Origin: SAR86 cluster bacterium
Lineage (GTDB): Bacteria > Pseudomonadota > Gammaproteobacteria > Magnimaribacterales > D2472
Direction: 5' to 3'
Length of the DNA stretch: 35,760 bases
Assembly (NCBI GenBank): GCA_003331565.1
Contig: QOPE01000004.1
Location: forward strand, 1-35,760
The notes beneath the pieces are model-generated. The model saw nothing but the letters and a program-made list of their open reading frames with translations. It had not been told where the DNA came from and did not search any database. A program made the position numbers and the translations under genes. This document shows positions 311-5,915 of this stretch, piece after piece (the first letter of the stretch is position 1; the number at the start of each line of letters is the position of its first letter).

Positions 311-1894
311 TTACAAGCTTACTAGATCATCGAATATTTCTTTAAACACTGGCGCTGCAACTTCTCCTCCAGAGTAACGATTTAGACCAGGCTCATCAAT
401 TGTCACTAAAATTGTATACTTTTTCGTTTCAAGTGGTCCGATGCCAATGAATGATGAAATGTATTTGCTTTTATCATATTTTCCATTGCTAACTTTATGA
501 GATGTGCCAGTCTTGCCTGCAACTCTATGTAAATGATGCTTTGCTTGCGTACCTGTACCATCAATGATAACTTGCTCAAGTGATTCCATAATTAGTTCAG
601 CCGTATGCTTAGAAATTACCTGACTTGGATTACTGTAATTTTTTTCTTCAACTAATTGAAAATCTTTTAAAACTCCATCATTTGCAAACACTGAAAATGC
701 TATCGCTAATTGGATTGCAGATGCCTCTAATCCATATCCAAATCCTAAGCTTGCTATTTCATGATCACTAATATTAGATCTTTGATTAATTTTTCCATAC
801 GCTATTGATGGAAAGTTTATATTTGGGGGAACAGCCAACCCAAATCTTTTATATCCATTAGTCAAATCATATGAGTCAATTTCCAATGCAATCTTTGCAG
901 CCCCTACCTGACTTGATTTTGCAATAATATCGATGGGAAGTAATGAGCCATAATTTCTTGGATCAGCAATAACCTGAGAGTTAAGCTCTATATATCCAGG
1001 ACCAGTTTCCACAGATTTATTAAAATCTATATCATTATTTTCAATCCCAATTGCGAGAGCAATTGGCTTAATAACTGACCCTGGCTCGAAACTATCCAAT
1101 AAAGCTCTATTCCTCTGAATTAACCTATTAGGATCATTAGGGTTATATGATGGATAGCTAGCTATTGCTAATATTCTTCCAGTTTTATTATCCAAAACAA
1201 CTGCGCTACCGCCTTTTGCCTGTGCTTGAATTACTCCTTGGGATAGGCTCTTATGAGCTGAATATTGAATCTCATGCTTAATGGTCAACTTAAGATTTTT
1301 GCCGTCAGATCCTCTATTTAAGATCTTTGGGGGCTTAATTATTTCTTGCCTTCGATTTTTAAAGATCTGTTTTTTTCCAACCTCTTCTTTTAGGTGATTT
1401 TCAAATCCTTTTTCTAGCCCCTCTAAGCCTCTGTTATCTGCTCCAGCAAAACCTATAAGCGTAGCTATTTGCTCTCCAAGGGGGTAAATTCTTTTACTAA
1501 AAGATTCAATCTCAAGATAATCATTCCTTTTTGATTTAATTTCCTGAATTTCTGCTAGCGAGATATCTTCTTTTAAAATTTTTTTCTTTTTTAAGAACCC
1601 AGTACCTTGATTTAAAAAATCAAATGAAAGATCTAAATCAGAAGTATCAAGTCCTTTAAGACCATATAAATTATATTTAATAAGGCTGCTAGCTAAGGGG
1701 TAATTATTTGCATCATATATTGCACCCCTTGCATGTGGAATATCTCTGAATGAAATAGTTCTGTAATCACCTTTAGCCTTTAAAAAATCACCCTCTTCTT
1801 GATACAAATAAAATATTCTCAAGATAATTATGGTTGTCATAAGAGCCATAACTCCGAATATGATATAAAAACGAACTGTCAATCTGCTACTCAT
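311..1894 (-). CDS. ftsI: Peptidoglycan D,D-transpeptidase FtsI (PBP3)
   Basis: The septal class B penicillin-binding protein, which crosslinks peptidoglycan at the division site. It has 527 residues, near the usual 560-590. One N-terminal membrane segment (about residues 8-28) anchors it, followed by the PBP dimerisation region (HARGAIYDANNYPLA) and the transpeptidase domain. The catalytic SxxK motif is S273-V-I-K276 in EPGSVIKP, and the KTG motif is K461-T-G463 in AGKTGTSHK. The SxN motif, SSN in E. coli FtsI, here reads S327-S-Q329; the CAG codon at 908-910 gives glutamine. The gene starts 4 bases after ftsL and is followed by murE, so it is part of one minus-strand transcript. Its family is clear; the unusual third motif is treated as a finding. 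Confidence 0.95.
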   Translation of the reverse strand: MSSRLTVRFYIIFGVMALMTTIIILRIFYLYQEEGDFLKAKGDYRTISFRDIPHARGAIYDANNYPLASSLIKYNLYGLKGLDTSDLDLSFDFLNQGTGFLKKKKILKEDISLAEIQEIKSKRNDYLEIESFSKRIYPLGEQIATLIGFAGADNRGLEGLEKGFENHLKEEVGKKQIFKNRRQEIIKPPKILNRGSDGKNLKLTIKHEIQYSAHKSLSQGVIQAQAKGGSAVVLDNKTGRILAIASYPSYNPNDPNRLIQRNRALLDSFEPGSVIKPIALAIGIENNDIDFNKSVETGPGYIELNSQVIADPRNYGSLLPIDIIAKSSQVGAAKIALEIDSYDLTNGYKRFGLAVPPNINFPSIAYGKINQRSNISDHEIASLGFGYGLEASAIQLAIAFSVFANDGVLKDFQLVEEKNYSNPSQVISKHTAELIMESLEQVIIDGTGTQAKHHLHRVAGKTGTSHKVSNGKYDKSKYISSFIGIGPLETKKYTILVTIDEPGLNRYSGGEVAAPVFKEIFDDLVSL

Positions 1895-1898
1895 AAAT

Positions 1899-2162
1899 CT
1901 ATTTTATTTTTAACCTTGTTTCGGCGTTCTGCATATTTAAATCTTGAATAGAGGACATCTCTGTTTTTGCTAATGAAGTTAAGAAATTTTTTTCTGTGGT
2001 CAGCTTGAGATTAATTTCTTTTAATTTCAAAATCTCGTACCTTGTATTCTCAATATCATTTGCCAAAATTGAATTTTCCCATCTAATTTTTATTAACCAG
2101 ATATTTGATACCAATATTAAAAAGAGTATGAAATATAAAAGATGGACTTTAGTATTACTCAT
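1899..2162 (-). CDS. ftsL: Cell division protein FtsL
   Basis: A bitopic division protein of 87 residues. It has a short cytoplasmic N-terminus, one membrane helix at about residues 8-24 (LLYFILFLILVSNIWLI), and a periplasmic segment rich in K/E/L with heptad-like spacing that fits a coiled coil (NTRYEILKLKEINLKLTTEK). FtsL forms the FtsQLB complex, which activates FtsWI. Sequence identity in this family is low, so the call rests on size, topology and the position between rsmH and ftsI, which is the standard place. Its ATG overlaps the rsmH stop by 4 bases (2159-2162), suggesting translational coupling. An antisense reading frame over this stretch is a shadow. Confidence 0.85.
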   Translation of the reverse strand: MSNTKVHLLYFILFLILVSNIWLIKIRWENSILANDIENTRYEILKLKEINLKLTTEKNFLTSLAKTEMSSIQDLNMQNAETRLKIK

Positions 2163-3049
2163 TTTTTTGCATATACCCTTAATACTGCACTTCTACTTCT
2201 AGGATTGGCTTTTACTTCCTCTGGTTTAGCTCTCAACTTTTTTTTAACTGCCCTATAACTCTCATCAATAGTATTGTTAATTGGTATTTCTTTTGGATAC
2301 GAGAAAGTTTTTGGAGAATAGTAATTTTTTACTATTCTATCCTCTAGGGAGTGAAATGAAATTATTGCTACTCTTGCCCCAGGTAATAAAATTTTATCAA
2401 GAGCATCTAGCATCATTTCAATTGCAGATATCTCCTGATTAACTTCAATTCTGATTGCCTGAAAAATCCTGGTTGCTGGATGAATTCTTGATTTTGATTT
2501 AATTGAACTTGAAATTAAATTTGCTAATTGTAGTGTCGATTTAATTCTTTGCTCAGATCTATAAATTGAAATAAGTTTTGCAATTTTTCTTGATTGCTTT
2601 TCTTCTCCGTACTTAAAAAAAATATTTGTCATATCTTCTTCAGGAGTTTCATTTATCCATTTTTCTGCACTTATGCCTTCAAGATTATTCATCCTCATAT
2701 CTAGGGGACCATCCTTATTAAGGCTAAAGCCTCTTTTAGGATCATCAAAGTGAGTTGAACAAACTCCAAAATCAAATAGAGCACCATTAATCTTAGGAAG
2801 TTTAAGTTTGCCTAGATCTGCAAAGTCATGATGAAAGATTTTAAGTCTTTTGTCTTGTATGATTTTTTTTGCATAACTTATAGCTTGAGGATCTTTATCA
2901 ATTGCAAATAATCTTCCTTTGTCGTTTAGTTGTGAGAGGATTTTTTTCGAGTGTCCACCCCTACCAAATGTTCCATCAAGGTATACACCATCTGGTTGAA
3001 TATTTAAAAGGCTGACCGATTCCTCCAGTAGAACCGGAATATGTTGCAT
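2159..3049 (-). CDS. rsmH: 16S rRNA (cytosine-1402-N4) methyltransferase RsmH
   Basis: An S-adenosylmethionine-dependent methyltransferase (296 residues, usual about 310) that modifies C1402 of 16S rRNA in the P site. The N-terminus HIPVLLEESV is the family signature. It is followed by the SAM-binding loop DGTFGRGGHS (about 25-34), AIDKDP, the DFGVCSTHFDDPKRGFS motif and the C-terminal ISFHSLEDRIVKNYY. The C-terminal NPRSRSAVLRV is also typical. It sits 4 bases after ftsZ and overlaps ftsL by 4 bases. In most bacteria rsmH directly follows mraZ; here ftsZ separates the two. RsmH and RsmI (5082-5915) methylate the same nucleotide, and both are encoded within 6 kb on the same strand. Confidence 0.97.
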   Translation of the reverse strand: MQHIPVLLEESVSLLNIQPDGVYLDGTFGRGGHSKKILSQLNDKGRLFAIDKDPQAISYAKKIIQDKRLKIFHHDFADLGKLKLPKINGALFDFGVCSTHFDDPKRGFSLNKDGPLDMRMNNLEGISAEKWINETPEEDMTNIFFKYGEEKQSRKIAKLISIYRSEQRIKSTLQLANLISSSIKSKSRIHPATRIFQAIRIEVNQEISAIEMMLDALDKILLPGARVAIISFHSLEDRIVKNYYSPKTFSYPKEIPINNTIDESYRAVKKKLRAKPEEVKANPRSRSAVLRVYAKK

Positions 3050-3053
3050 TTGA

Positions 3054-4175
3054 TTAATCTACCTGCTTTCTCATGAAAGTTGGCACATCGAGGAAATCAA
3101 TATCCTCTGCAGACGATGTGCCAACACTGACTGAATCCTTTGTATGATCTTTATCGAGTCCAACTGGAGATAGCTTTACCGTTGAAGGAGAATTATCAAC
3201 TGCAAGCCTTGGTGCTTTTTGATTAACGCCAGTTGCTACGACTGTAACAGTAAGCTCGTCCTCATTAAGATTCTCATCAATTACTGCTCCATAAATTACT
3301 TGGGCATCTTCGGCAACTATGTCCTCAACCACTGTGTTGACTTCATGCATGTCGCCCATGGTAGGACTTTTAGCACTTAAATTTACCAATATACCTCTAG
3401 CATCCTTAAGGTTTATATCTTCAAGAAGTTCTGAACCGATTGCTTGTGATGCTGCTTCAACTCCTCTCTCTTTACCAACTGCGACTCCAGTTCCCATCAT
3501 TGCAATACCTTTCTCCGACATAACAGTTTTGACATCAGCAAAGTCAACGTTAACGTAACCAGGCTTCATGATTATGTCTGAAATTCCTTGCACCGCTCCT
3601 CTGAGCACGTCATCTGCTTTGGCGAAAGCTTCTTGCATAGAAACATTTAATCCGAGTACTTCCATTAATTTCTGATTTGGGATTGTTATCAAGCTATCAA
3701 CTTCCTCTACTAAATGAGCAATTCCTTGCTCTGCTGCAGTAATTCTTTTTTTACCTTCTAGCTGAAAAGGCTTTGTTACTACTGCAACTGTAAGAGCACC
3801 CATTTCTTTTGCTATTGAGGCAATAATTGGTGCAGCACCTGTTCCAGTTCCGCCTCCCATTCCGGCAGTAATAAAGACCATATCGGCACCATCTAAGAGT
3901 TCTTCAAGTGACTCTCTATCTCTTTCAGCTGCCTGACGTCCAACCTCTGGATTAGCTCCTGCGCCTAATCCTTTGGTGATTCCACCACCTAACTTTAAAA
4001 TAGTGGCGCCATTAGCCTTTGCTAAGGCCTGAGCATCCGTATTAGCACAGATAAACTCAACACCATCGATATTATGATTCATCATATGAATCACGGCATT
4101 GCCTCCGGCGCCACCCACCCCGATAACTTTTATTTTTGCTTGCTCTGAATGATCTTCGATAATTTCCCAATTCAT
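3054..4175 (-). CDS. ftsZ: Cell division GTPase FtsZ
   Basis: A tubulin-like GTPase of 373 residues that polymerises into the cytokinetic ring. Seen in the sequence: [14 protein letters not shown] near residues 15-28, the tubulin signature GGGTGTG at 107-113, a T7 loop with [11 protein letters not shown], and the C-terminal peptide [16 protein letters not shown] (358-373) that binds FtsA and ZipA. All catalytic regions look intact. The gene lies 10 bases after mraZ and 4 bases before rsmH. This is not the usual place: in E. coli and most Gammaproteobacteria ftsZ follows ftsA at the far end of the dcw cluster. A strong ribosome-binding sequence (AAGGGGAGA) overlaps the mraZ stop codon, so translation may be coupled to mraZ. 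Base composition looks like the neighbours', with no sign of recent transfer. Confidence 0.99.
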
Positions 4176-4178
4176 ATC

Positions 4179-4187
4179 TCTCCCCTT
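4179..4187 (-). promoter_or_regulatory. Strong Shine-Dalgarno of ftsZ overlapping the mraZ stop codon
   Basis: Read on the minus strand the sequence is AAGGGGAGA, ending 3 bases before the ftsZ ATG (4173-4175). It overlaps the mraZ TAA (4186-4188). Several genes in this window have little or no such signal, so its strength suggests high and possibly coupled translation of ftsZ. Confidence 0.7.
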
Positions 4188-4653
4188 AAAAAGACATATT
4201 TTTTACTGTTTCTGGTAATACTACTTCAAGTATTTCAGTTGATAGTGGTCCACCCTGCTGTCTGGCTTCCCAATTTGCTTGACTCCAAAGCTCAAACTTA
4301 TCCCCCATCCCAACTAGCGCAATCTTTTCTTTTATTTCTATTTCTGCATGAGTTCTTAGTTCACTTGGAATCATAAGAAGCATTCGAGATTGAGCATTAA
4401 AGTCTTGAACTGAGGCATTTCCTAGAATTGTCCATTGCAGCTTTCTTACAATTGGGTCAAGACTTTGTAAAGACTGGAGTCTGGAAGAAATATCATTCCA
4501 TACACCTTGAGGATAAATTTTTAGTGCAGGATATTGAGGATCTTGAGTAACAACTATTTTATTTGTGTCTAGTTCAAACAGGCTGTCCCTGTATTTCGCA
4601 GGAATTGCTATTCTGCCCTTAGGGTCGATTGTTATTGAATTAAAGCCAAACAT
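4186..4653 (-). CDS. mraZ: Transcriptional regulator MraZ
   Basis: A SpoVT/AbrB-like DNA-binding protein of 155 residues with two MraZ repeats. The first contains the conserved ITIDPKGRIAIPAKYRD (about residues 7-23). The second contains SRMLLMIPSELRTHAEIEIK and ALVGMGDKFELWSQANWE. Known MraZ proteins form ring oligomers that bind direct repeats with a 10-bp period in front of their own gene and control the dcw operon. An array of exactly that period lies at 4677-4714 just upstream. The ATG at 4651-4653 has no Shine-Dalgarno, and a TATAGA box 11 bases upstream suggests an almost leaderless transcript. The first downstream target here is ftsZ. Confidence 0.97.
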   Translation of the reverse strand: MFGFNSITIDPKGRIAIPAKYRDSLFELDTNKIVVTQDPQYPALKIYPQGVWNDISSRLQSLQSLDPIVRKLQWTILGNASVQDFNAQSRMLLMIPSELRTHAEIEIKEKIALVGMGDKFELWSQANWEARQQGGPLSTEILEVVLPETVKNMSF

Positions 4654-4664
4654 GTGTAGTTAAA

Positions 4665-4670
4665 TCTATA
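4665..4670 (-). promoter_or_regulatory. Possible -10 box of mraZ (near-leaderless transcript)
   Basis: TATAGA on the minus strand, 11 bases before the mraZ ATG, which would put the transcription start only about 3-6 bases ahead of the start codon. No good -35 hexamer lies 16-18 bases upstream. That position is occupied by the degenerate member of the MraZ-box array, so activator-assisted transcription is possible. Inferred from sequence only. Confidence 0.4.
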
Positions 4671-4676
4671 GTTCTA

Positions 4677-4714
4677 CACACTTTAAAACATTTTTTCACA
4701 CTTTGACACACTTT
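4677..4714 (-). promoter_or_regulatory. MraZ-box array (three perfect AAAGTGTG repeats, one degenerate, 10-bp period)
   Basis: On the minus strand AAAGTGTG occurs at 4714-4707, 4704-4697 and 4684-4677. The slot between them (4694-4687) holds AAAATGTT, which matches 6 of 8 positions. All four slots share a strict 10-bp period ending 23 bases before the mraZ start. MraZ sites are known as 10-bp-spaced direct repeats in front of mraZ: TGGGN with 5-bp spacers in E. coli, and AAAGTG[T/G]N3 in Mollicutes. The form here matches the Mollicutes description. That MraZ binds it is inference, but position and periodicity are strong support. Confidence 0.8.
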
Positions 4715-4740
4715 TTTTAATTTTTTTAAAAAAAATATAT
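4711..4740. other. A/T-only tract between rnpB and the MraZ boxes
   Basis: After the single C at 4711, bases 4712-4740 are all A or T, with runs of seven T (4712-4718 and 4721-4727) and eight A (4728-4735) on the plus strand. Read on the minus strand, the eight-T run lies about 10 bases past the rnpB 3' end and could end that transcript, although there is no GC-rich hairpin apart from rnpB itself. A rigid A-tract could also position the adjacent MraZ array. Confidence 0.4.
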
Positions 4741-4744
4741 CAAA

Positions 4745-5067
4745 TGAGTTGGTCTGTAAGCCGGATTCTGTCTAGATGGCCATCTATCTCGACATTATGT
4801 CGCCATAATGCTCTAGCAACCTACCCGAATCTCTGATGAGCAATCAATAAGATTCCTATTTGGTCTTGCTTCGGATGGGGTTTACACTGCCATCAGTGTT
4901 ACCACTGATGCGGTGAGCTCTTACCTCACCTTTTCAACCTTACCCTAAGGCGGTATATTTTCTGTTGCACTTTCCGTAGGCTCACGCCTCCCAGGAGTTA
5001 CCTGGCATCCTGCTCTATGAAGTCCGGACTTTCCTCTGCAAAAGCAGCGACCATCCGACCAACTCGA
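4745..5067 (-). ncRNA. rnpB: RNase P RNA (catalytic subunit, type A)
   Basis: The ribozyme that removes 5' leaders from pre-tRNA. On the minus strand the ends pair as helix P1: GAGTTGGTC near 5065-5057 with GACCAACTC near 4754-4746. Conserved blocks are visible: GAGGAAAGTCCGGAC (about 5036-5022), the GTGCAACAGAAA block, AAGGTTGAAA, TGGTAACACTGATGG, GACCAAATAGGAA, and the 3' ACAGAATCCGGCTTA block (4771-4757) that forms P4 with the 5' part. The length of about 323 bases is slightly below the E. coli 377. It begins about 15 bases after the rsmI stop, and rsmI-rnpB-mraZ is the order I know from pseudomonads. Exact ends are uncertain by a few bases. A TAAAAT sequence just upstream, in the rsmI-rnpB gap, is a possible -10 box. 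Confidence 0.95.
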
Positions 5068-5081
5068 CGTAGATTTTAATA

Positions 5082-5915
5082 CTAAATGTTCTCTTTAGAT
5101 ATATCTGACAAAAATTTATATACAGACTGCTTATTATGTCCATAAAGGTCATAAATTAGTTTTGAAGCATCCTTTGTAGAGAGGTATTTCAAAAATTTTT
5201 TTCCCTCCTCCTCAGAAAGAGAGAAATTTTTTACAGAGTCTCTTTTTGAACTAAGTACAATTACAATTTCACCTTTACATGTAATTTCATCATTTTCTAA
5301 TTCTTGAGCAATTTTTTTTAAAGAGCCCCTTTTAATTGATTGGAACTTCTTAGTCATCTCACGACAAATAGCTATTTCACAATTATTACCTAATTTCTGA
5401 TGTAAAAAATTTATGGTTGTTTTTAGTCTTTTTGGGCTCTCAAAAAAAATTGTTGAGCCCTCAAAATTCTCAATTATTGAAATTGCTTTATCTTTTCTAT
5501 TACTTTTTTTTGGAAAAAATCCTTGGAAATTAAATGAGCTAGGGGGGAGCCCAGAATATACCAAGGCAGTGATCACTGAAGAAGCACCTGGCAGCACTTC
5601 AAAAGATATTTTATTCTCTATACATAGCCTGATTAGTGGGAATCCAGGATCAGAAATGATTGGTGTTCCTGCATCCGACATAATTCCTACATCAATACCA
5701 TCAACTAGATATGAGAGTATTTTTTTGGATACCTCATTTTCATTGTGCTCATGAAAAGTTCGAATGGATGGTTTGTCTATTGAAAGATCAGATAAAAGTC
5801 TTGAGGTTTTTCTTGTGTCCTCTGCAAATATATACTTAACTGATTTAATTACTTCAATTGATCGTAAAGAAATATCTTTTGTATTTCCTATTGGCGCAGC
5901 GATAATGTAGAGCAT
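5082..5915 (-). CDS. rsmI: 16S rRNA (cytidine-1402-2'-O) methyltransferase RsmI
   Basis: A tetrapyrrole-methylase-fold enzyme (277 residues, usual about 285) that 2'-O-methylates C1402 of 16S rRNA. The N-terminus LYIIAAPIGNTKDISLR is the family start. Next come AEDTRKTSRLL, the FHEHNE motif, the SAM loop SDAGTPIISDPGFPLI, PGASSVITALVYSGLPPSSF, GFFPKK, and TIFFESPKRL with ICREMTKKF. All are in their usual order. It pairs functionally with RsmH, which makes the N4 methylation on the same base. It is the first minus-strand gene here and shares a 23-base intergenic region with the divergent lipoprotein gene. The C-terminus shows an ordinary helical tail. Confidence 0.96.
   Translation of the reverse strand: MLYIIAAPIGNTKDISLRSIEVIKSVKYIFAEDTRKTSRLLSDLSIDKPSIRTFHEHNENEVSKKILSYLVDGIDVGIMSDAGTPIISDPGFPLIRLCIENKISFEVLPGASSVITALVYSGLPPSSFNFQGFFPKKSNRKDKAISIIENFEGSTIFFESPKRLKTTINFLHQKLGNNCEIAICREMTKKFQSIKRGSLKKIAQELENDEITCKGEIVIVLSSKRDSVKNFSLSEEEGKKFLKYLSTKDASKLIYDLYGHNKQSVYKFLSDISKENI

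Follow-up and report, generated by a model that had tools for sequence, protein, structure and literature searches.

MraZ is a regulator that is very widespread in bacteria, and its DNA box has been described as a different motif from group to group. Negative autoregulation by MraZ is reported from E. coli (cited in PMC7761207) and has been described for M. genitalium as well (PMC8475190). In Burkholderia, MraZ binds repeats of this type in gel shift, and the GTG core was already known to be common to the boxes of B. subtilis, E. coli and mycoplasmas (PMC7761207). For mycoplasmas, a role as activator has been described as well (PMC7761207, citing Fisunov 2016), which makes the sign of its regulation uncertain. 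A literature search for MraZ in SAR86 retrieved no paper.

The locus described here lies in the window, i.e., the whole analysed stretch of 35,760 nucleotides, which is one contig from the 801-kb, 59% complete assembly of a SAR86 gammaproteobacterium. Directly upstream of its mraZ gene lies an array of four boxes, which is very probably the autoregulatory operator of the local MraZ. Judged from the DNA, the operator is of the usual MraZ type, with a single base per repeat altered in this lineage, and both the promoter and the gene cluster are rearranged. SAR86 offers a natural experiment within one class, as it combines changes in the operator base, the regulator, the promoter and the place of ftsZ with loss of the circuit in one family. 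Moreover, the locus bears on the control of division in an abundant, mostly uncultured ocean lineage.

The box array and its conservation in SAR86

On the minus strand, the gene order in the window is rsmI, rnpB, boxes, mraZ, ftsZ, rsmH and ftsI. The RNase P RNA gene rnpB (4741..5066; Rfam RF00010, 325 bits) precedes the array, which is followed by mraZ as the putative cognate regulator (4186..4653, with its start at 4653), ftsZ as second in the cluster (3054..4175; PF00091 and PF12327), rsmH, also called mraW, as the third (2159..3049; PF01795) and ftsI, encoding a penicillin-binding transpeptidase (311..1894; PF00905 and PF03717). The neighbouring protein was identified as MraZ by Pfam PF02381, which matches two stretches with 65.5 bits at a cut-off of 23, and by its predicted fold. 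No terminator-like site was found at positions 4600-5100 of the window; read-through from rnpB could add to mraZ transcription.

Read on the minus strand from position 4714 to 4675, the array is AAAGTGTGtc AAAGTGTGaa AAAATGTTtt AAAGTGTGta. Boxes 1 (4707..4714) and 2 (4697..4704), both AAAGTGTG and 10 bp apart, are kept across the order. Box 3 (4687..4694), AAAATGTT, is a degenerate copy; it is conserved in this degenerate state within the genus, whereas its sequence varies across the family. Box 4 (4677..4684), again AAAGTGTG, is the best conserved of all boxes in the family. All four have the orientation of mraZ, which had been left unstated in the initial annotation, and three of the four contain the GTG core. 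The window therefore shows what is generally expected of an MraZ operator, namely direct repeats in roughly 10-bp phase directly upstream of mraZ. The three perfect AAAGTGTG boxes are the sole exact copies in the window, with 1.08 expected by chance, and first-order Markov resampling of the 87-nt rnpB-mraZ interval yielded three in-phase perfect copies in 0 of 100,000 resamples and two in 5.

Three perfect copies and a degenerate one in strict 10-bp phase before mraZ, as initially annotated, were confirmed, and the strict phase is kept in the genus of the window. It does not extend to the whole family, since the step across the degenerate box 3 measures 20 bp in this genus and 21 bp in many other genera. 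MraZ of M. gallisepticum reportedly binds a repeat whose spacing is off by 1 nt (PMC5282649), and the 21-bp step therefore need not break binding. Throughout the family the third box is degenerate, with an 11-bp step in many genera (window, L010, L014, L020, L021 and L023). This pattern looks as if selection acts on boxes 1, 2 and 4 only.

The gene mraZ is present in 51 of 61 genomes (the own genome and its relatives). At least two cores spaced 10, 20 or 21 bp precede it in 49 of the 50 MraZ-bearing loci of the order, which bears out the conservation in close relatives on which the initial annotation had made its reading depend; the remaining locus, L016, has AAAGTGTG boxes with degraded copies in between. 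Of 42 paired-box matches in the 61 genomes, 41 are at mraZ, and the odd one has one mismatch and comes from a genome without mraZ. Further arrays, and thus further MraZ targets, with the paired-box pattern were not found in these SAR86 genomes, so the array is essentially the only one of its kind per genome.

In family f4, no mraZ match was found in any of the eight sampled genomes of ~1 Mb each. The gene order there is rsmI-rnpB-ftsZ-rsmH-ftsI, with ftsZ directly after rnpB, and no box pair was found around ftsZ in the 11-12 kb taken from seven loci. Boxes go with mraZ in that both are present in the order and both are missing in f4, where rnpB remains. Across the sampled genomes, phased boxes were shown to stand before mraZ throughout the order, about once per genome, and to be missing where mraZ is missing.

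Some further observations concern the f4 loci. In L346-L352, ftsZ stands in place of mraZ behind a leader of ~25 nt without boxes. In three f4 genomes (G039, G048 and G051), the FtsA match is broken by one in-frame TAA. Neither the RsmH tree, which does not include f1, nor the unrooted FtsZ tree was used to order families f1-f4.

One repeat unit and its seventh base

The initial annotation assigned the boxes to the form described for Mollicutes, as opposed to the TGGGN boxes of E. coli. As to the letters, this was correct: the perfect copies fit (AAAGTGKN3)3 (PMC5282649) in a proteobacterium, and the window contains at least three AAAGTG[T/G]N3 units, i.e., three perfect ones with the degenerate one in between. 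Such units are not diagnostic, because boxes from other phyla and gammaproteobacterial boxes with G at position 7 (G7) fit as well. The opposition to E. coli did not hold, as both arrays are built from one 10-bp unit, with the difference at position 7. Outside the order, phased arrays were read in 88 of 91 class loci; their consensus is AAAGTGG(G/A)NN, and the 10-bp step is dominant. The leader of E. coli K-12 reads TCAGTGGGAA ATTGTGGGGC AAAGTGGGAA, so that TGGGN corresponds to positions 5-9 of this unit; in the window, these positions do not read TGGGN, as position 7 is T (T7). The 91 class loci rule out a separate class of box in E. coli, and on this alignment the label 'Mollicutes-style' is misleading.

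The unit of the SAR86 order is AAAGTGTGNN. In a tally that took only boxes with TG at positions 5-6, whose columns 5-6 are therefore fixed by construction, position 7 of the SAR86 boxes is T in 86%, C in 8%, A in 4% and G in 1%. Class boxes have G at this position in 82%, and much of their T7 stems from a first 'box' overlapping the -10 (TATAGTGT). T7 is fixed in three SAR86 families. By this comparison, the SAR86 boxes are the widespread bacterial AAAGTGKNNN unit, in which position 7 would have gone from G to T and then become fixed in the order. When the published motifs and ~200 loci are aligned on the 10-bp unit, they resemble a single motif whose seventh base varies.

In a scan of genome contigs for three AAARTGT units, the matches listed include, besides SAR86, arrays before MraZ in at least Clostridia (L159), Anaerolineaceae of the Chloroflexota (L183), Chlorobiota (L197), Bacteroidales (L162), Cloacimonadota (L220) and a MAG labelled Limnohabitans (L210). 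The single Mycoplasmataceae genome sampled has G7 boxes (L326); these and the T7 arrays in other phyla rule out that T7 marks Mollicutes. The exact pair AAAGTGTGNNAAAGTGTG was found in three of 369 class genomes, two from SAR86 and one other (G391), and no MraZ ORF was found at the G391 locus that has this pair.

The predicted fold of the window MraZ (monomer model, pLDDT 85) matches two structures of M. genitalium MraZ on DNA, 9r4j with its promoter and 9sz7 with a four-box promoter (Foldseek against 9sz7_H, E 8.5e-09). In the MraZ alignment, D10, K12, G13 and R14 are invariant, with a DxKGR loop in the first repeat. Three differences run through the SAR86 order. Firstly, all 39 SAR86 rows have W74 where E. 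coli has R75; 72 of 84 gamma rows and 53 of 57 other rows have R in this column. Secondly, there are two 2-residue insertions (M91-L92 and I107-K108). Lastly, the FRG arginine near the N-terminus is lost. Since these changes are order-wide, a shifted recognition surface, the other proposal of the initial annotation, is possible. Together with the fixation of T7 in three families, they give some weight to the explanation that MraZ and its boxes co-evolved in SAR86 and that the protein now prefers T7, which may be entertained tentatively. However, the T7 lineages in Clostridia (L159) and Anaerolineaceae (L183) have neither the W nor the insertions, and thus no residue can be assigned to T7. A single MraZ residue explaining T7 across phyla was not found in the alignment. 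Moreover, the SAR86 order is one lineage, and the association is therefore not causation. SAR86 does provide a direct way of testing which MraZ residues read position 7.

Another explanation for T7 is drift at low GC content, by which GTGGG would have become GTGTG through the AT-richness of SAR86 while the preference of the protein stayed unchanged. The SAR86 loci indeed have 30-40% GC, and with a base at position 7 that varies from phylum to phylum, MraZ may tolerate T there. However, loci of 26-38% GC in other phyla (Clostridia, Flavobacteria and others) keep G7, barring those found via the T7 pattern itself. Furthermore, position 7 in SAR86 turned to T, not to A or T, and G4 mostly stays, which is unlike the A/T mixture expected of drift. 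A caveat is that the sample has few AT-rich gammaproteobacteria from outside SAR86, with three loci under 40% GC. The proposal in the initial annotation that low GC drove convergence is contradicted in so far as low GC is ruled out as a sufficient cause by the AT-rich G7 loci, and drift with an unchanged protein is unlikely.

Promoter, position of ftsZ and sign of regulation

In 57 of 88 class loci, a TTGAC-like element is paired with a -10 that lies over the first box. In the family of the window, this class promoter, TTGACA-17-TATAGT overlapping the first box, is seen in 0 of 35 loci; by a slightly looser rule, SAR86 families f2 and f3 have the pair in 6 of their 15 loci. In class loci L053-L143, the -10 TATAGT runs into a first box-like unit (ATAGTGTNNN) that is in phase with the true boxes, and promoter and operator would therefore overlap by design across Gammaproteobacteria.

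The 3′ end of rnpB lies near box 1 in the window's family, at 26 bp in the window, which leaves scant space for a class-type promoter upstream of the boxes. As the class-type promoter is gone in this family, the boxes probably lie over the -35 of a rebuilt promoter with a very short leader. A tentative -10-like hexamer in the window, TATAGA (4665..4670, minus strand), is located between the last box and the start codon. Several genera have -10-like hexamers in this interval, at a frequency not above the AT-rich background.

If the boxes are upstream of the -10 in this family, MraZ might activate instead of repress. The class promoter over the first box being common in the class and absent from the family, the closeness of the rnpB 3′ end to box 1, the hexamers after the array and the activator role reported in mycoplasmas point in this direction. 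However, the -10 match is at chance level in an AT-rich leader, boxes over a -35 region suit repression equally, and M. genitalium MraZ is a repressor, so a switch in sign is rather improbable. That the array is no operator but a chance or structural repeat, as its AT-rich interval adjoining rnpB might suggest, is next to impossible, since chance is ruled out by the exact-copy count in the window and the 100,000 Markov resamples, the boxes are kept before mraZ across the order, and in f4 they are lost with mraZ although rnpB stays.

Besides the promoter, the gene cluster is different. In all 35 loci of the window's family (L003-L037), ftsZ is directly behind mraZ. In families f2 and f3, rsmH follows mraZ and ftsZ comes after ftsA, a few genes further on; rsmH also follows mraZ in the other class loci (91 of 91). 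As ftsA is found ~14 kb downstream both in f4 and in the family of the window, it appears that ftsZ was relocated to the front without ftsA, its former neighbour; in the window's family it now follows mraZ directly. This puts ftsZ, as second gene, behind the operator.

For the array as autoregulatory operator, the most likely mechanism can be proposed by analogy. MraZ would bind as a ring whose subunits each take one box, the boxes following each other at one helical turn, and the ring would cover the promoter, so that rising MraZ would repress its own cluster, mraZ-ftsZ-rsmH-ftsI. We infer the ring, the repression and the regulated start from work on E. coli, Burkholderia and M. genitalium (PMC7761207, PMC8475190) and from the titles of 9r4j and 9sz7. 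A more far-reaching and doubtful idea is that SAR86 has an orthogonal MraZ-operator pair, in which the box base and the protein surface changed together, the promoter was rebuilt and ftsZ moved behind mraZ for tight feedback, after which one family dropped mraZ and the boxes.

Comparison with known MraZ systems

The fold predicted for the window MraZ is that of M. genitalium MraZ in 9r4j and 9sz7, and a four-box promoter is found in both systems. The proteins differ in that their identity is 24-29% and that SAR86 MraZ adds the two 2-residue insertions and W74. The Mollicutes site, (AAAGTGKN3)3, resembles the array in its 10-bp period and in the AAAGTG[T/G]N3 letters of the perfect copies (PMC5282649, PMC8475190). 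Position 8 in SAR86 is usually G, however, and T7 is not Mollicutes-specific. SAR86 and Mollicutes boxes are presumably related by common ancestry, with no sign in the aligned loci of a special link to Mollicutes.

The PmraBc promoter of Burkholderia cenocepacia has four 7-nt GTG-core repeats with 3-nt spacers, which are bound by MraZ in gel shift (PMC7761207). Its repeats come after the -10 and cover the start site, whereas the arrays of the window's family have no class-type promoter ahead of them. Finally, the boxes of E. coli and other gammaproteobacteria likewise repeat one 10-bp unit in direct orientation, share the AAAGTG core and lie immediately upstream of mraZ. Compared to these, the SAR86 boxes have T7 and not G7, and those of the window's family are without TTGACA-TATAGT over the first box.
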